From the NCBI RefSeq assembly GCF_036850765.1, contig NC_089494.1, forward strand, positions 55,755,809-55,819,808: a stretch of DNA of 64,000 nucleotides, given 5' to 3'. Below the pieces are notes generated by a model, which worked only from the letters and a program-made list of their open reading frames with translations, had not been told where the DNA came from and ran no database searches. Positions 4,219 through 63,112 of the stretch are shown piece by piece. This DNA comes from Saccopteryx bilineata. Lineage: Eukaryota; Chordata; Mammalia; Chiroptera; Emballonuridae. The first letter of the stretch is position 1. The number at the start of each line of letters is the position of its first letter. The position numbers and the translations under genes are program-made.

Positions 4219-4596
4219 GGTTTTTTTTTTTTTTGTATTTTTCTGAAGCTGGAAACAGGGAGGCAGTCAGACAGACTCCCGCATGCACCCGACCAGGATC
4301 CACCCGGCACACCCACCAGGGGGCGATGCTCTGCCCATCCGGGGCGTCACTCTGTCGCGACCAGAGCCATTCCAGCACCTGAGGCAGAGGCCAAGGAGCC
4401 ATCCCCAGCGCCCGGGCCATCTTTGCTCCAATGGAGCCTCAGCTGCGGGAAGGGAAGAGAGAGACAGAGAGGAAGGAGAGGGGGAGGGGTGGAGAAGCAG
4501 ATGGGCGCTTCTCCTGTGTGCCCTGGCTGGGAATCGAACCCGGGACTTCTGAACGCCAGGCTGACGCTCTACCACTGAGCCAACCAGCCAGGGCCA
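4219..4596 (-). mobile_element. tRNA-derived SINE (GCCCTGGCC head), full length, minus strand
   Basis: On the minus strand it begins GGCCCTGGCTGGTTGGCTC, with A box and B box (GGGTTCGATTCCC) of a tRNA-like pol III promoter. The ~330-bp body follows, then the T-run (A tail on the minus strand). A perfect 12-bp duplication, agaattacaact, lies at 4207-4218 and 4597-4608. This is a complete copy. Confidence 0.93.
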
Positions 4597-31779: not shown

Positions 31780-32262
31780 ATTTTCTTCAGTATAATAGAC
31801 ACACAGACAAATGGAATAGAATTGAGAACCAGAAATATGCATAACCACATATATATGGACAAATCATCTTCAACAATGGAGCCAAAAACACACAATGGAG
31901 AAAAGAAAGCCTCTCAACAAATGGTGCGGGAAAATTAGAAAGCCACATGCAAAAGAATGAAACTTGGCTACAGTTTGTCACTCTGCACAAAAAATTAATT
32001 CAAAATGGAGCAAAGACTTAAATATATGATCAGAAATATTGAATTACATTAAAAAAAAAGCATAGGTACTAAACTTGTGGACCTTGGCCGTAGAGAACAA
32101 TTTATGAATTTAACCCCAAAGGCAAGGGAAGTAAAGGAAAAAATAAATGAATGGGACTACATCAAACTAAAAAAACTTCTGCACAACAAAAGAAACTGAC
32201 AACAAAACAAATAGGCAACCAACTAAATGGGAGATGATATTTGCAAACAACTGCTCAGATAA
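31780..32262 (+). mobile_element. L1 ORF2 3' part, left piece (host of the CACTA-type element)
   Basis: Matches the younger L1 at about 62080-62540: 'caatggagaaaagaaagcct', 'aatgaatgggactacatcaa', 'aactgctcagataa'. It ends at TAA, exactly where the CACTA-type transposon begins. The rest of this L1 is at 34256-35530. Confidence 0.92.
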
Positions 32263-34255
32263 CACTAGGGAACAAAATTTTTGTTGCATCCACAAAAACA
32301 CTTGTTCTTACCCAATTCAAGTGTGCTGATCTCAAATCTGACAGTAGTTTTTCTCTGTAAACTATAGTTTTTTTTTTCCAATTCAAGACTTTAGGTTTTC
32401 ATCGTATTGTAAAATTTTCAACATTTAGTTTAACATAATGAAGTAGAATGTCTTCTTGGGCATCATATCTGTGAAAATATAATAATTTATATAATGCAGT
32501 AAATACACTAATACACTAATAGATATGATTGCTTCAGAATTTGTCTACAATTTCAAAATAGAACGTATTAAAACACATTTTAATCATAAAATTTGCGCAA
32601 AACTTATTTAAATTCTATTCAGGCAAAAATTTGCGTATGTAGCTGTTGCATTTGTGTACTTGTTGAGGACAATCTTGTTTGATGCACCAGCAGTAATCTG
32701 CTCATCACTAACAGCTCCAAGATCTTCGGGAAACTTATCAAGGTGACTGGTCAAGAAGTGAATCTTAACGCTCATGTTCCATCCAATGTCACAGAAAGCC
32801 AACAGCATCCTTTGAACCAGAAGTTCATAATTTTCTGCTTTTTTGTTGCCAAGGAAGCTCTTTGTAACTGCCAAAAAAGACTACCATGCTGCTTTCTCCT
32901 CTTTATTCATCTTCCTGGCAAATTCTTTGTCATGTATAAGGGTTTGAATTTTAGGTCCATCGAATTCACCTGCTTTTATCTTCTCGAAAGACAAGGCAGG
33001 AAAAGCAGAAATAATATGTTGAAAGCATTCACTTTTTATTCAAAGCCTGAATAAACTGCTTCATTAAGCAAAGTTTGATGTAAAGTGGGGGAAAAATGAT
33101 CCTGTCTCAATTAACTACAGGTTCATTCACAATATTTTGCATCTCTACTTCCAGAGCTTCATGTTTTAGCCACTCCTTCTGTGTCCAGTGTTTCTCCCGA
33201 GCTCAGCTGTCCCACAAACACAGAAAGCAAGGATACTTCGTGAAACCTCTCTGTTGTCCTAGCAGAAAATTTACTATTTGAAGATCCACACAAAAAATCC
33301 AGTTATGCTTCTCATACTTCAGAAAGTCAAGGACAATTTTTATGTCATTCTTACTAAGTCATTCAATTCAGGTTGGCTAAACTGCTGAGGGGTTAATGCC
33401 TGCTTGGCATCAGAAGAAGACCCTTCAGATTCTACAACCATTTCCTCATGCATCTTATCAAAATACACTTGAACACCATGTTCACTTTTTTTGTCCTTAG
33501 AAGAAATAAAACCATTGAAAATTGGAACTGGGAGTGTCTCAGAGTGTGGAATAGGTCATATTGTTGAAGGAAATTTAGGATATGCGATCATATGCTGTTT
33601 TTTCTTGCCGATGCCCTTTGTATGGATCAGACAGAAATAACAGTCACTGCTGTGGTCCTTATGTTCACACCAAACCATGGAAATACCAAAAGGCATTCCT
33701 TTGCATTTTCATTTTGTCTGGTCACAAAGCATTTCCTCACAATTATGACACACAATATAAGGAGCTCAATTCTTGTCTTGATTGTCAAGGGGAACTTGAA
33801 AATAGGCAATATATGCATGTGTCACAAATGATGAAATATTGCACCTTTGACATTGAAGTGTGTAACAGCCACATATATAACAGAAGGTGTCAGGACTATT
33901 CTTACAGTTATGCCTACTTGAAGAAGCCATGATTCAACCTTAAAACAAAATAAGAGGGTGTTTTTATCAGATAATAATTCTTTACATTTAAAAACAACTA
34001 AAATTATGTAAAAATGATATTTGCAAAACATTAATTGCCTTGTGGTTATATTCAATCCAAGAGTCGTTGCCCTTTAACTCCAATTTTAAAACCAATGCAT
34101 GCCATTAACTGTAACAAAAAGAAACTGAAATTCCATAAAAACTAGAGCATGCACCAAAAAATGGATTTCAGATTTGGAATCAGTGATGCAGAAATATATA
34201 GAAACAGTTCTAAAATCTCAGGCAACAGGAAAATGAAAAAAAATTTTCCCCAGTG
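32263..34255 (-). mobile_element. CACTA (EnSpm-like) DNA transposon inserted in an L1
   Basis: The 1,993-bp element has inverted termini: left CACTAGGGAACAAAATTTTT, right (complement) CACTGGGGAAAATTTTTTTT. It is flanked by a 3-bp duplication, TAA (32260-32262 and 34256-34258), interrupting L1 text that reads 'gataagggg' in intact copies. CACT/AGTG ends with a 3-bp duplication are the hallmark of CACTA/EnSpm elements. Inside, on the minus strand, lies a decayed ORF of an uncharacterised multi-copy protein family. The element is internally deleted. I am confident that it is a DNA transposon and moderately confident of the superfamily. Confidence 0.85.
32608..33930 (-). pseudogene. Decayed ORF of an uncharacterised transposon-linked family
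   Basis: The frame starts ATG at 33930 and reads MASSSRHNCKNSPDTFCYIC, followed by a second cysteine pair 'CHNCEEMLCD', a 'VWCEHKDHSSDCYFC' motif, and a 'PIPHSETLPVPIFNGF' linker. It then gives 'FTKYPCFLCLWDS', 'IIFPPLYIKLCLMKQF', and, in the open stretch 32608-32874, 'KSFLGNKKAENYELL' and 'EDLGAVSDEQ'. This order matches a family known to me from many arthropod, cnidarian and fish genomes, annotated only as uncharacterised. Premature stops include TGA at CpG-derived Arg positions, there are frameshifts, ~120 residues are missing in the middle, and the C-terminus after SDEQ is gone. The cysteine motifs suggest zinc binding. Role as transposase is inferred from location between the element's inverted repeats. 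Confidence 0.75.
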
Positions 34256-34536
34256 TAAGGGGTGTTAATATCCAAAATATATAAAGAATTCACAAAGCTC
34301 AGTAATACACAAGCAAACAATCCAATTACAAAATGGGGAGTGGACATGAACAGACACTTCTCCCAAGAAGACATACAAATGACCAACAGATATATGAAAA
34401 GATGCTCATCTTCACTAGCTATTAGAGAAATGCAAACCAAAACTACAATGGAGAGATTGTGGAGAAAAAGATTTGTATTCACTCCTGGTGGAAATACAAA
34501 TTAGTACAACCATTATGGAAGAAAGTATGGTGGTTC
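34256..34536 (+). mobile_element. L1 ORF2 3' part, middle piece
   Basis: Continues the L1 after the CACTA-type element ('gttaatatccaaaatatata', 'tatatgaaaagatgctcatc'). About 100 bases are deleted near 34450, where 'aactacaatgg' joins 'agagattgtggagaaaaa'; intact copies have the 'gagataccacctcacacctg' region in between. Confidence 0.9.
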
Positions 34537-34918
34537 TGTCACAATGACAAAAACTACTCAGAGACCAGATGAAATGCACAGAGGGGCTAGGGGAGGCAAC
34601 AGTCTTTGTCAGCAGATCAAAGGACTGCAACCCCATCCCCAACCTTACTCAGATATTTATTGGCCAGTACAAATAACTCACGGAAGCAGAAAGAGGTTCT
34701 CAGGGGGTGAAGCAAAGTACAAGGAACATGCTGACTCCTAATCTCTGTTCTGAGAGCCTAAACAATTTTTTTATTAAATCTTTTCCTATTTTGTTGTTTC
34801 TAGTACATGGTCAGAGAGGCCCCTGGACTCTAGTCTGCTCAGGGCTTTTGCCCTAGGGCACCTCCCTGTCTCTAATTATTATACTAACTCTGCATGTTTT
34901 CATAGCATGTTCTCACAG
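34537..34918 (+). repeat. Solo LTR inserted in the L1
   Basis: Begins TGTCACAATG at 34537 and ends near 'catgttctcaca'. It interrupts L1 text that in intact copies reads 'atggtggttcctcaaaaaac'. Near-matching flanks (gtggttc and gtgattc) look like a target-site duplication. An ATTAAA signal lies in 'ttttttattaaatcttttcc'. No internal retroviral sequence. Confidence 0.75.
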
Positions 34919-48934: not shown

Positions 48935-49347
48935 TTTGTTTTGTTTTGTTTTGTTTTTGTATTTTTCTGAAGCTGGAAATGGGGAGAGACAGTCAGACAG
49001 ACTCCCGCATGCGCCCGACCGGGATCCACCCGGCACGCCCACCGGGGGGCGACGCTCTGCCCACCAGGGGGCGATGCTCTGCCCCTCCGGGGCGTCGCTC
49101 TGTTGCCACCAGAGCCACTCTAGTAGTGCCTGGGGCAGAGGCCAAGGAGCCATCCCCAGCGCCCGGGCCATCTTTGCTCCAATGGAGCCTTGGCTACGGG
49201 AGGGGAAGAGAGGGACAGAGAGGAAGGAGAGGGGGAGGGGTGGAGAAGCAGATGGGCACTTCTCTTGTGTGCCCTGGCCGGGAATCAAACCTGGGACTTC
49301 CGCACGCCAGGCCGACGCTCTACCACTGAGCCAACCGGCCAGGGCCT
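48935..49347 (-). mobile_element. GCCCTGGCC-type SINE with internal duplication, minus strand
   Basis: Full-length with head 'ggccctggccggttggctc', and the doubled 'gggcagagcatcgccccc' module. Perfect 14-bp duplication accaagggattttt at 48921-48934 and 49348-49361. T-rich tail interrupted by 'gttttgttttg'. Confidence 0.94.
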
Positions 49348-55682: not shown

Positions 55683-58085
55683 GAGAGTAATGGCGGGGTA
55701 GGAAGCGATACCGATAAATCTCCCCCAAAACTCAACAAGATCTTCAACCAGAAACAGAAAAACCTATACTTGGAGCCTCCAGATGCTTCGCAATACACCC
55801 AAAGGTATGGTCGACTGAAAAATTGGCTAAATATATAACCAAACCCCGAAGGAAATAGGGAGTAAGAAATGCTCCGCCTTCCTCACTAACCTAAACAGGG
55901 CGGCTTTCTCTGGTAACTGTGAATATAAAAACTGAGGCGGGCAAAGGGGGTGAATAGATCCAGGCCGCGGCACAAACGGCCGAACCAGGCTGTGGCATGG
56001 AGATCCAAGCCGAGGAAAAACTGATCCTGTGGCAACCCGGGCAATACAAGCTAACACTCGCGCCAAACCCAAACAAAGAAAGACAAGCGGGGCGGCCATT
56101 TTACCCGGTCTCCTGGTCAGCGTGCGCGCAGTTAGTGGGCAAGAGATTTCTTCCTAGGCCCCGGGAGTGGGTGCCCGTGTTGCCCCTCAGAGAGGCAGGG
56201 TCAGAGGCCTTTCTGTGGGCCGAGGGCAGAGTCTCTGGGCAGCCCCAGCACCCTGGGAAAGACACGCACAGGAGGGAGTGAGAACTAATTCCAACGGTGG
56301 AGATTTTCCGTGCTGGAGGGGATTTCACTCAGAGGGAAACGCGGCTGGCCTCATATCCTGGTCTGCATGCACACATAGTGAATGAGAGATTCTTCTGAGT
56401 GCCTCGGCAGTGCGCGCCCGTGTTATCGCACAGAGGGGCAGAATCAGGGGCCTTTGTGTGGGCCAAAGCGGAATCTCGGGCCGCCCCAGCGCCTTGCAAA
56501 AGCCATGCACGGGGACGGAGCGAGGCTCAATTCCAACGCTACAACTTTTCCCTGCGGTTGGGGGCTTCACTCAGAGCGTGAGACTGCTGGCCGGATATCC
56601 TGGTCTGCGCGTGCGCAGTGAGTGAGAGTTTCCTCCAAGCGCCCCGGAAGTGGGTGCCCGCCTGTGTTACCGGACAGAGTGGCAGAGCCAGAGGTCTTTG
56701 AGTGGGCGGAAAGCCCGCCTGATTATGCTAGCAGCTCTGACTGACTGAGCCTTACCCAGAGCCCTGTGCTGCGTGGAAATAGAGTGGGGAGTTGCCAGCT
56801 CTATGAGCCTCTAACTATCCAGGCAGAGGCAGCAGCAACCCCATAGCTGGATTATCAGGCTACTAATTGAGAAAGGAAAGACTAGGAGAAAGGCTCCAGG
56901 AACAAGGACTCTCTCACTGTCGGAGCCTATAAATGCTAATGAGCCTCGACTGCCAACGAGACTAAAGCACAATACATGACATTGCCATAGAGACTTATCA
57001 ACTGCAAACCTCTACCTGAGTGTGCCAAAGAGGCAGAACCCAGGGTACAGAGTCACCGACCAGGAAGAGGGAGAGAAAAGAAAAAGCAAGAAGATAACCT
57101 CTCAAAATCAAGAATAATCTGCAGACTTTATAACCTATCCCATTTTATTATATTTGTTCGTTTGTTTCTATTATCTTCATTCTTGATACTTTTTTTCCTC
57201 CTCCAATTTGGCCGATTAACTCTTTGCCGGTCTTACTCTCCTCACCTTGAACTACACTACCCATAAGTGTTACATCTCCCATTATCTTTTCTCTTCTCTT
57301 CCTTTCTCTCTATGAGGGTTGCACTCCAAAACCCTTAACTCTCTCTCTCTCTCTCTCCTTTATTTTTTCTTCTTTAAGTGGTTCCCTCCTTTTTCTCTCT
57401 CTCTCTTTCTTTTCTCGCTCTATATTAGTTTCTTCCTTTCTCCTTTACATCTCCTCTCATTCAAACCTCAATAACAAACAAATTATCTGGGACTCAAACT
57501 TATGTTTGTGGCATTTTCGGAGGTTTTTACTTCACTAGCAGTGCTCCCATCCCTGGCTCTCCATTTTATCTAGTTCTTGTTCCACTAAATACAATAGTAA
57601 TTTTTTAATTTGTCCCCCCATTTTTCCGTTTTCCTCTTATTCCTCTCATCATAACTCTTAGACAACCAACACCTAAAAGCAAATCATTTTATTCTTGACC
57701 CAAATTTTTTCCTTATTTGCTTTTTGTGGGTCCATACGCTCTTTTTTTTTCTTTTTTTTTTCTTTTATCTTTTTTTTTCTTTTTTTTTTGTCCCTTTATT
57801 ACTTTTCCCCAATTCAGGCCCTCCATCACAGGCATTGTTTGTTATAATTCACAGTTCACCACAAGATTTTCTCAAGAAAGAGGGGAGAGGAGAGGAGAGG
57901 AAAAAAGGAGGGGGGGAATAATTTCCTTTTTTTAAAATTTTTATTTTATTTTATTTTTCTTTATTTCATTATTAACTTTTTTAAAAAAAACAACTCTTTT
58001 CAATTTTTTTTATTATTTTTTAATTTTTTTTAACTTTTTATTCTTTATTAAATCTCATTAATACTATCAACAAAACCACCCTCAG
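55683..58085 (+). promoter_or_regulatory. 5' UTR/promoter of the full-length L1, with tandem monomers
   Basis: Begins 'gagagtaatggcgg', which contains a YY1-like ATGGCGG core near position +8. A GC- and CpG-rich zone runs at 55980-56720. Three tandem units start at 'tcctggtc': 56111, 56356 and 56598 (periods 245 and 242 bp), the third partial, ending near 56712. A CCATTTT motif lies at ~56095. A pyrimidine-rich and A/T-rich stretch (57120-58080) leads to ORF1. The L1 5' UTR is known to be an internal pol II promoter; the monomer function is inferred. Confidence 0.8.
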
Positions 58086-59080
58086 ATGCCATTAAGGAAG
58101 AGAAAATCAAATATCATGGATACAAAAGAAAGAGAGGTAACACAGCTAGATGAGGAACAATCTATAGAGAAAAAATTTAATATATTGGAAACCTTGGAGC
58201 TAAATGACAGAGAATTCAAGATAGAAATCCTAAAAATCCTCCGAGATACATAAGAAAACACAGAAAGGCAATTTAGGGAGCTCAGAAAACAACTCAATGA
58301 ACACAAAGGATATATGTCCAAGGAAATTGAAACTATAAAAACAAATCAAACAGAGATGAAAAACTCAATTCACGAGCTGAAAAACGAAGTAACAAGCTTA
58401 GCTAATAGAACAGGTCAGATAGAAGAGAGGATTAGTGAAATAGAAGACAAGCAACTTGAGGCACAACACAGAGAAGAAGAAAGAGACTCAAAAATTAAAA
58501 AAATGAAATAGCCCTACAAGAATTATCTGACTCCATCAAAAAGAATAACATAAGAATAATAGGTATATCAGAGGGAGAAGAGAGAGAAAATGGAATAGAG
58601 AACATACTCAAACAAATAATAGATGAGAACTTCCCAAGCCTGTGGAAAGAACTAAAGCCTCAAGTTCAAGAAGCAAACAGAACTCCGAGTTTTCTTAACC
58701 CCAACAAACCTACTCCAAGGCATATCATAATGAAATTGACACAAACCAACAGCAAAGAAAAAATTCTCAAGGCAGCCAGGGAAAAGAAGAATACAACATA
58801 TAAAGGAAGGCCCATTAGATTATCATCAGATTTCTCAGCAGAAACTCTACAAGCTAGAAGACAGTGGACCCCAATATTTAAAGTCCTGAAAGAGAGGAAC
58901 TTTCAGCCACGAATACTATACCCATCAAAGCTATCCTTCAAATACGAAGGAGAAATAAAAACATTCACAGATAGAGAAAAGATGAGGGAATTTATCATCA
59001 GAAAACCCCCACTCCAGGAATTACTAAAGGGGGTTCTCCAATCAGATACAAAGAACAAAAAAAAACAGAGCCACAAGTAA
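58086..59080 (+). pseudogene. L1 ORF1 (RNA-binding chaperone), broken
   Basis: ATG at 58086 (MPLRKRKSNIMDTKERE). A coiled-coil region 'IEERISEIEDKQLEAQ', the RRM start 'RIIGISEGEERENGIENIL', and the C-terminal domain 'FIIRKPPLQELLKGVLQSD' are present in normal order and length (~330 residues). A TAA at 58251-58253 (codon 56, likely CAA to TAA) and a frameshift at ~58505 inactivate it. The intact protein would bind L1 RNA as a trimer. Confidence 0.93.
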
Positions 59081-59406
59081 AAGCTCCAAGAAGAACACAA
59101 TAAAACCAAATTTAAACTGTGACAACAACAAAAAGAAAGAGGGGGAGAAGATGGAGATTAACAGTAGCAAAGGACGATGGAGTGCAAAAGTACTCACAAA
59201 ATAGTTCGCTACAATGAACAGGGTAGGGACCCTTTTCATTATTCAAAGGTAACCACCATTGAAAAATCCACCACAGAAGCACATGAGATAAAAGAGATAG
59301 CAACAGAGGAAACATGTATGGAATACAACCAAATAAAAACAAAAGATAGAAAAACGAAAGAGAAGGATCAAACAAGACACAAAACTAACAGAAAGCAAGA
59401 TATAAA

Positions 59407-62400
59407 ATGGCAATAGGGAACTCACAAGTATCAATAATTACACTAAATGTAAACGGATTAAACTCACCAATAAAAAGGCACAGAGTAGCAGAATAGATTA
59501 AAAAAAATCCAACTGTATGCTGCCTACAAGAAACTCATCTAAGTAACAAGGATAAAAACAAATTCAAAGTGAAAGGCTGGAAAACAATACTCCAAGCAAA
59601 TAACATCCAAAAAAAAGCAGGTGTAGCAATACTCATATTGGATAATGCTGACTACAAGACAGGAAAAGTACTCAGAGACAAAAATGGCCATTTCATAATG
59701 GCTAAGGGGACACTGAATCAAGAAGACATAACAATTCTTAATATATATGCACCAAACCAAGGAGCACCAAAATATATAAGACAGCTACTTATTGATCTTA
59801 AAACAAAAACTGACAAAAATACAATCATACTTGGAGACCTCAATACACCGCTGACAGCTCTAGATTGGTCATCCAAACAGAGAATCAACAAAGACATAGT
59901 GGCCTTAAACAAAACACTAGAGCACCTGGATATGATAGACATCTACAGGACATTTCATCCCAAAGTGACTGAGTATACATTTTTCTCCAGTGTACATGGA
60001 TCATTCTCAAGAATTGACCATATGTTGGGTCACAAAAACAACATCAGCAAATTCAGAAAAATTGAAGTTGTACCAAGCATATTTTCTGATCATAAAGTCT
60101 TGAAACTAGAATTCAACTGCAAAAAAGAAAAAAAATCCCACAAAAATGTGGAAACTAAACATACTTTTAAAAAATGAATGGGTCAAATAAGAAATAAGTG
60201 CAGAGATCAAAAGATATATACAGACAAATGAAAATGACAATACAACATATCATAATCTATGGGATGCAGCAAAAGCATTGATAAGAAGGAAGTTCATATC
60301 ACTTCAGGTATATATGAACAAACAAGAGAGAGCCCAAGTGAACCACTTAACTTCGCACCTTAAGGACCTAGAAAAATAAGAACAAAGACAACCCAAAACC
60401 AGCTGAAGAAAGGAGATAATAAAAATCAGAGCAGAAATAAATGAAATAGAGAACAGAAAAACTATAGAAAAAATTAATAGAACAAGGAGCTGGTTCTTTG
60501 AAAAGATCAACAAAATTGACAAACCCTTGGCAAGACTTACCAAGGAAAAAAGAGAAAGAACTCATATAAACAAAATCCAAAATGAAAGAGGAGAAATTAC
60601 CACGGACACCGTAGATATACAAAGAATTATTGTAGAATACTATGAAAAACTTTATGCCACTAAATTCGACAACCTAGAAGAAATGGATAAATTCCTAGAA
60701 AAATACATCCTTCCTAGACTGAGTCAAGAAGAAGCAGAAAGCCTAAACAGACCTATCAGTAGAGAAGAAATAGAAAAAACCATTAAAAACCTCCCCAAAA
60801 ATAAAAGTCCAGGCCCTGACGGCTATACCAGCGAATTTTATCAAACATTCAAAGAACACTTGGTTCCTATTCTACTCAAAGTCTTCCAAAAAATTGAAGA
60901 AGAAGCAATACTTCCAAACACATTTCATGAGGCCAACATAACCCTCATACCAAAACCAGGCAAGGATGGCACAAAAAAAGAAAACTACAGACCAATATCT
61001 CTAATGAATACAGATGCTAAAATACTAAACAAAATACTAGCAAATCGAATACAACAACATATTAAAAAAATAATACATCATGATCAAGTGGGATTCATCC
61101 CAGAATCTCAAGGATGGTTCAATATACATAAAACGGTTAACGTAATACACCATATCAACAAAACAAAGAACAAAAACCACATGATCTTATCAATAGGCGC
61201 AGAAAAGGCTTTCGATAAAATACAACACAATTTTAAGTTTAAGACTCTCAACAAAATGGGTATAGAAGGAAAATATCTCAACATGATAAAGGCCATATAT
61301 GATAAACCATCAGCTAACATCATATTAAATGGCACTAAACTGAAGGCTTTCCCCCTTAAATCAGGAACAAGACAGGGTTGTCCACTCTCTCCACTCTTAT
61401 TTAATGTAGTACTAGAGGTTCTAGCCAGAGCAATCAGACAAGACAAAGAAATAAAAGGCATCCATATCGGAAAAGAAGAAGTAAAGGTATCACTTTTTGC
61501 AGATGATATGATCCTGTACATCAAAAACCCCAAAGAATCCACAAAAAGACTTCTAGAAACAACAAGCCAATACAGTAAGGTCACAGGATACAAAATTAAC
61601 ATACAGAAGTCCATAGCCTTTCTATATGCCAACAATGAAACAACTGAGAAGGAACTCAAAAGAATAATCCCCTTCACGATTGCAACAAAAAAAATAAAAT
61701 ACTTAGGAATAAACATAACAAAGAATGTAAAGGACTTATATAATGAAAACTATAAACCATTGTTAAGGGAAATCGAAAAAGATATAATGAGATGGAAGAA
61801 TATACCTTGTTCTTGGCTAGGAAGAATAAATATAATCAAGATGGCTATATTACCCAAAGCAATATACAAATTTAATGCAATTCCCATCAAACTTCCAATG
61901 ACGTTTTTTAAAGAAATAGAGCAAAAAATCATCAGATTTATATGGAACTATAAAAAACCCCGAATAGCCAAAGCAATCCTAAAGAAAAAGAACGAAGCTG
62001 GGGGCATTACAATACCTGACTTCAAACTATATTATAGGGCCACGACAATCAAAACAGCATGGTATTGGCAGAAAAATAGACATTCAGACCAATGGAACAG
62101 AATAGAAAGTCCAGAAATAAAACCACATATATATAGTCAAATAACTTTTGATAAAGGGGCCAACAACACACAATGGAGAAAAGAAAGCCTCTTCAATAAA
62201 TGGTGCTGGGAAAACTGGAAAGCCACATGCAAAAGAATGAAACTGGACTACAGTCTCTCCCCCTGTACAAAAATTAACTCAAAATGGATCAAAGATCTAA
62301 ACATAAGACCTGAAACAATTAAGTACATAGAAGAAGACATAGGTACTCAACTCATGGACCTGGGTTTTAAAGAGCATTTTATGAATTTGACTCCACAAGC

Positions 62401-63112
62401 AAGAGAAGTGAAGGCAAAAATTAATGAATGGGACTACATCAGACTAAGAAGTTTTTGCTCAGCAAGAGAAACTGATAACAAAATAAACAGAAAGCCAACT
62501 AAATGGGAAATGATATTTTCAAACAACAGCTCAGATAAGGGCCTAATATCCAAAATATACAAAGAACTCATAAAACTCAATAACAAACAAACAAACAATC
62601 CAATAAAAAAATGGGAAGAGGATACGAATAGACACTTCTCCCAGGAAGAAATACAAATGGCCAACAGATATATGAAAAGATGTTCATCTTCTTTAGCTAT
62701 TAGAGAAATGCAAATCAAAACAGCAATGAGATACCACCTCACACCTGTTAGATTAGCTGTTATTAGCAAGACAGGTAATAGCAACTGTTGGAGAGGCTGT
62801 GGAGAAAAAGGAACCCTCATACACTGTTGGTGGGAATGTAAAGTAGTACAACCATTATGGAAGAAAGTATGGTGGTTCCTCAAAAAACTGCAAAAAGAAC
62901 TACCTTATGACCCAGCAATCCCTCTACTGGGTATATATCCCAAAAACTCAGAAACATTGATACGTAAAGACACATGCAGCCCCATGTTTATTGCAGCATT
63001 GTTCACAGTGGCCAGGATATGGAAACAACCAAAAAGCCCATCAATAGATGACTGGATAAAAAAGATGTAGCACATATACACTATGGAATACTACTCAGCC
63101 ATAAGAAATGAT
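59407..63112 (+). pseudogene. L1 ORF2 (endonuclease/reverse transcriptase), broken
   Basis: Start MAIGNSQVSIITLNVNGL at 59407. The apurinic endonuclease domain (59497-60177) has 'CCLQETHL', 'LGDLNTPL' and 'IDHMLGHK...FSDHKVL'. RT motif A is at 61196 and motif C FADDM at 61496-61510. The Cys-rich C-terminus has '[20 protein letters not shown]' near 62790. Breaks: TAG at 59494 (codon 30), TGA at 60175, a frameshift before ~60400, and TAG at 63068 (Trp in the KKMW motif). In motif A the catalytic Asp codon is replaced by GGC (Gly). The long open segment is 847 residues. Not active by itself. Confidence 0.95.

Follow-up and report, generated by a model that had tools for sequence, protein, structure and literature searches.

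Chapaev3 transposons, a lineage of the Chapaev-Mirage-CACTA group, are already known, as is a case in which one was transferred into a mammal. According to the available text of PMC4079192, Chapaev3 elements (Merrow, Garfield, Conan) span 2.1-2.5 kb and encode 554-562 aa in the copies listed with both exons complete. Merrow and Garfield have two exons, while most other Chapaev3 elements described there have one. All those examined in the same text carry a T after the target duplication, with an insertion bias for A before and T after. The transfer into a mammal, published in 2014, concerns the tenrec element Conan (1,865 bp, 461 aa; PMC4079192). As stated in the accessible part of PMC4411706, the N-terminus of the Chapaev3 transposase contains a zinc-finger 'Chapa' domain.

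Other transposons share features with Chapaev3. For example, CACTA/EnSpm elements belong to the same Chapaev-Mirage-CACTA group and have likewise moved horizontally between animals. In the strict sense they have CACTA at both ends, and Transposase_21 is the plant-type CACTA transposase domain in Pfam. Transib elements duplicate a 5-bp target. Spongebob, also a member of the Chapaev-Mirage-CACTA group with horizontal transfer between animals, is found in insects and Hydra, begins with CCC and makes a 2-bp duplication, unlike the element described below (Tang et al. 2015, PMC4298943, available text). The bat elements covered in that part of the paper are hAT and piggyBac.

Here, a stretch of 64,000 nucleotides was analysed (the window), and it very probably contains a decayed Chapaev3 copy inside an L1; the family of this copy most likely reached the bat lineage by horizontal transfer from outside mammals. 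Positions 32263-34255 form a single element of 1,993 bp flanked by TAA triplets, at 32260-32262 (preceding base A) and 34256-34258 (next base G). The first-pass annotation had given exactly these borders, and the CACT inverted ends and TAA duplication that it reported were found at both of them. The left end reads CACTAGGGAACAAAATTTTT from 32263, and the right end, reverse-complemented, reads CACTGGGGAAAATTTTTTTT from 34255. The terminal inverted repeats, CACTAGGGAACAAAATTTTTGTT on the plus strand (32263-32285) and CACTGGGGAAAATTTTTTTTCAT on the minus strand (34233-34255), are imperfect. An ungapped comparison of the two element ends over 24 nt finds 16 of 24 positions identical. With gaps, 1 of 5,000 randomly drawn pairs of sites in the window scored at least as high. 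The motif CACTRGGGAA occurs in the window without mismatch at the two element ends only. With one mismatch allowed there are 16 matches against 8.89 expected, and 4 of 100 shuffles reach 16, so that the motif says little by itself and its pairing with the TAA duplication is what counts.

The insertion can also be read from its host. L1 sequence lies on either side of the element on the plus strand (31787-32262 and 34256-34536; blastn of the joined flanks against 62069-62728). When joined by one TAA, the flanks align to the L1 at 62069-62728 at 81.9% over 670 columns, across the insertion point, providing an empty site within the same window. Together, this alignment and the TAA-flanked ends show that the element inserted cleanly and duplicated 3 bp of its target. 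The L1 is thus interrupted at an identifiable point, as had been claimed, although the site reads GATAAGGGcc rather than the gataagggg first given. Between the host L1 and the window's open-frame L1, the 337-column alignment at the junction gives a distance of 0.148 (JC 0.165). A search of the rest of the window turned up neither a second copy nor a short derivative; the hits were four stretches of 18-30 nt, with E from 0.11 to 0.37.

Several other repeats were observed in the window. The same host L1 is interrupted a second time at 34537-34917 by ~380 bp of other sequence, starting near TGTCACAATG, with L1 resuming near 34918; this insert is possibly a solo LTR. An L1 of young appearance, at 58499-63070, retains an open frame of 887 aa together with portions of the frames that precede it. 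Among the best 120 of 1,490 matches to the 887-aa frame, the top score belongs to a rat protein (65%) and the highest identity to donkey (77%), with Rhinolophus as the sole named bat (69% over 65%), a result that fits a laurasiatherian host without singling out a species. Upstream of the young L1, a tandem array at 56142-56714 (242-bp unit, 2.4 copies) perhaps represents its 5' promoter monomers. Copies of a tRNA-derived SINE lie at 4524-4589 and 49270-49340 (minus), and SINE-related repeats with 22-bp GC-rich tandem units occur near 1445, 5411 and 25143. The tRNA-derived repeats resemble bat SINEs.

The element carries a broken Chapaev3-type transposase frame on the minus strand, running from 33930 down to 32618, as located by tblastn of nine relatives with limits set by two of them, P0004 and P0005. 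In P0004 numbering, residues 1-194 comprise an N-terminal Cys/His-rich region with internal stops (33349-33930; 85.1% over 194 aa). A junction at 33349 marks the loss of residues 195-302, among them the first candidate catalytic Asp (P0004 D270). Residues 303-408 follow (33032-33349; 81.1% over 106 aa), with the second candidate catalytic Asp and the C(2)C motif kept and the His of LH changed to Tyr. Beyond a small frameshift at 33032-33036, residues 408-520 (32698-33036; 86.7% over 113 aa) keep H(4)H and E519. A second junction at 32698-32701 lacks residues 521-544, including E522, and leads to the C-terminal piece ADYCW...RKFLPE at 32618-32701 (82.4% over 17 aa with P0004 and 75% over 28 aa with P0005). 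All of these blocks and junctions come from tblastn coordinates.

Stops occupy 6 of the 430 codons aligned to P0004, and the frame seems to be single-exon. With the missing codons counted in, the window copy would measure ~2.39 kb, a purely arithmetical figure. Since the first candidate catalytic Asp falls within the first deletion, the window copy cannot make an active enzyme. Judged from its sequence, it is a non-autonomous, decayed copy with two internal deletions, stops and a frameshift, and is predicted to encode no working transposase.

The family to which this frame belongs is mainly of invertebrate type. In a search of ~5.8 billion proteins, the best match of the read-through query was P0004 (E 7e-234), an uncharacterized protein of Saccopteryx leptura, a sac-winged bat of the family Emballonuridae, whose gene lies on a 196-Mb contig. 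P0004 is 81-87% identical to the window frame in three long blocks (tblastn), and tblastn back to the window gave E 4e-106 and 3e-105. The matches listed include arthropod, cnidarian, frog, lizard and snake members; of those listed that name an organism (7 of 120 in one listing, 6 of 120 in another), S. leptura alone is a mammal. The motifs FCYICG, CHNCEE, FLCLWDS and GAVSDEQ were located on the minus strand as initially described, and the arthropod and cnidarian parts of the family range then proposed hold, with frog, lizard and snake to be added; no fish appears by name among the matches listed. The accompanying remark that no named mammalian gene encodes the protein holds in a narrow sense: the annotated S. 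leptura protein lacks a gene name, and on modelled structure the RAG1 core is a distant relative of the transposase.

Among the matches listed, relatives lie mostly on contigs of ~2-3.5 kb, near one element length, which look as if they were multicopy transposons collapsed in assembly. One such protein, P0023, carries a Pseudomonadota MAG label and comes from a 2.7-kb contig. Its reading as a bacterial gene was rejected, and it is taken as contamination because it is nested in the clade containing the bat and stick-insect proteins.

The residues expected of an active enzyme are strongly conserved in the family. In a 92-row profile (A2), Cys342, Cys345, Leu390, His391 and His504 are present in 92 of 92 rows and His499 in 91, while the candidate catalytic residues Asp269, Asp323, Glu518 and Glu521 are present in all 92. 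The window copy has C(2)C and H(4)H, reads LY for LH, and has lost the first Asp and Glu521. The N-terminal region has conserved Cys and His residues. The predicted fold of another relative, P0006, over ~residues 181-561 is a RAG1/Transib-like RNase H fold, with 8-15% sequence identity in structural alignments to Transib/RAG1. At the sequence level, a search of profile A2 against PDB sequences returned neither RAG1 nor Transib at E<=10, the single match (E 0.32) not being RAG1. Searches for DNA relatives with query A1 fitted a pattern in 1 stretch of viral contigs and 7 of genome contigs, none of them confirmed, and tblastn of P0006 against phages and plasmids gave no match.

The route of entry was addressed with a tree of 59 rows, in which 58 of the 130 proteins among the matches listed accompany the window copy. 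The window copy pairs with P0004 (100/100). Of the named non-bat relatives in this tree, the closest is the stick insect Bacillus rossius, which joins the pair (100/97). The sequence from the lizard Rhineura is paired with that of Hydra (100/100); those from snake and frog fall in another, separate clade. A single clade of all five vertebrate rows was rejected with p-AU 7e-48, and a single amniote clade with p-AU 2e-6, in both cases with groups picked after the tree was seen. The element tree therefore conflicts with the host tree, and horizontal entry, as proposed in the first-pass annotation, is the simplest reading of the bat and stick-insect grouping and the rejected vertebrate clade. The direction of transfer, into bats, is one that we infer. 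Path lengths to the window copy are 0.45 for P0005, a metagenome protein, and 0.48 for the stick insect, whose sequence is 62-68% identical to the window copy in three blocks (tblastn); the stick-insect protein, P0070, is 73% identical to P0004. As the nearest relatives are only moderately similar, no donor is named.

Alternatively, the bat copies could descend vertically from an old vertebrate Chapaev3 lineage that was lost from nearly all other mammals. Lizard, snake and frog do have members of the wider protein family, and a tree as mixed as this could also arise from deep paralogy followed by many losses. However, the bat sequences join the stick insect and not the reptile or frog copies, and the rejection of both the vertebrate and the amniote clade also weighs against vertical descent. 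S. leptura is moreover alone among mammals in the listed matches that name an organism, and the copy sits inside an L1 at the distance from the open-frame L1 given above. The first-pass argument, that a copy inside a lineage-type L1 should not be an ancient vertebrate relic, is a reasonable supposition. Vertical descent is therefore improbable, and horizontal entry remains the favoured account.

Which family entered is a separate matter. The transposase is placed as Chapaev3-type, and not CACTA proper, by its structure, motifs and published descriptions. The element has CAC..GTG inverted termini (CACTAGGGAA / CACTGGGGAA) and a 3-bp TWA duplication, with TAA on both sides and the empty-site L1 in the same window. 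In the available text of PMC4079192, Chapaev3 shares with the element and its family these ends, the TWA duplication, into which the TAA fits, the C(2)C/LH/H(4)H motifs, animal hosts and horizontal transfer. The present case differs from the Chapaev3 of that text in its probable bat host, in a frame that looks single-exon against two exons in Merrow and Garfield, and in the G 3' of the duplication; the flanking bases, A before and G after instead of T, come from one insertion only. Compared with the Transib/RAG1 core, the predicted fold of P0006 and the zinc-ligand spacing C(2)C, H(4)H are alike, but the element has a duplication of 3 bp, not 5 bp.

A CACTA/EnSpm element in the strict sense would fit the left end, which is CACTA, and the 3-bp duplication. 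Against this, the right end is CACTG, so CACTA does not stand at both ends, and the size, motifs and TWA duplication agree with Chapaev3. In addition, neither the window frames nor three relatives gave a match to any Pfam-A family that passed its cut-off, and for P0001, P0003, P0006, P0023 and P0058 Transposase_21 does not feature among the hits at E<=1 in Pfam. A strict CACTA identity is consequently very improbable. The label 'CACTA-type' given at first is right in denoting a terminal-inverted-repeat DNA transposon with a 3-bp duplication, and is loosely acceptable because Repbase puts Chapaev under EnSpm/CACTA (PMC4455052, available text), but Chapaev3-type is the more accurate term. Finally, although relatives among the matches listed come mostly from short contigs, an assembly artefact or contaminant with arthropod DNA is hardly credible for an element whose ends are exact, whose target is duplicated and which lies within a mammalian L1, and with an S. 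leptura relative on a 196-Mb contig.

As a Chapaev3 element, it would have moved by cut-and-paste. A DDE transposase of RAG1/Transib fold would bind the CACT inverted ends, cut the element out and insert it at a 3-bp TWA target, which would then be duplicated. The present copy inserted into a TAA within an L1 of a mammal, most probably an emballonurid bat.

Comparison with P0004 also gives an indication of age. Over 430 codons, the window copy and P0004 show 67 amino-acid differences, corresponding to at least 72 nucleotide changes, of which up to 49 are transitions. In sixteen of the 67 differences the starting residue is Arg, replaced mostly by Cys, His, Gln or stop, the pattern that decay of CpG sites would produce. 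Branch lengths in the 59-row tree are 0.14 for the window copy and 0.029 for P0004. Taking ~2.2e-9 per site per year as the neutral rate in mammals, and allowing for silent changes, the comparison suggests an age of very roughly 20-30 million years, with wide error.

P0004 itself, annotated as isoform X4 and standing for 12 sequences, has all candidate catalytic residues present. An extra tail, residues 563-681 (~119 in all), matches nothing in Pfam or PDB. It differs at 8 of 183 columns (4.4%) that are conserved at >=95% in the other 91 rows, against 1.1% in the median row. It may thus be undergoing decay, or its gene model may be a fusion. A further reading starts from the uptake of a non-mammalian Chapaev3 by emballonurids and takes P0004, with its candidate residues intact, to be either a still active transposon or a gene of RAG1-like fold captured by its host; this is possible but unlikely. 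With the candidate catalytic residues in place, activity or host capture is directly testable in this protein.

A literature search of incomplete coverage found no report of Chapaev in bats. In the available text of PMC4298943, from 2015, no mammals other than vespertilionids had by then been reported to show recent activity of DNA transposons. The L1 and tRNA-derived repeats of the window, taken with P0004, point to an emballonurid bat as the probable host here, in a family outside the vespertilionids. The element adds a lineage of RAG1/Transib-fold transposons to the DNA transposons entering bats. If its copies are numerous and datable, they would provide a further test of whether bats acquire invertebrate DNA transposons more than other mammals do.
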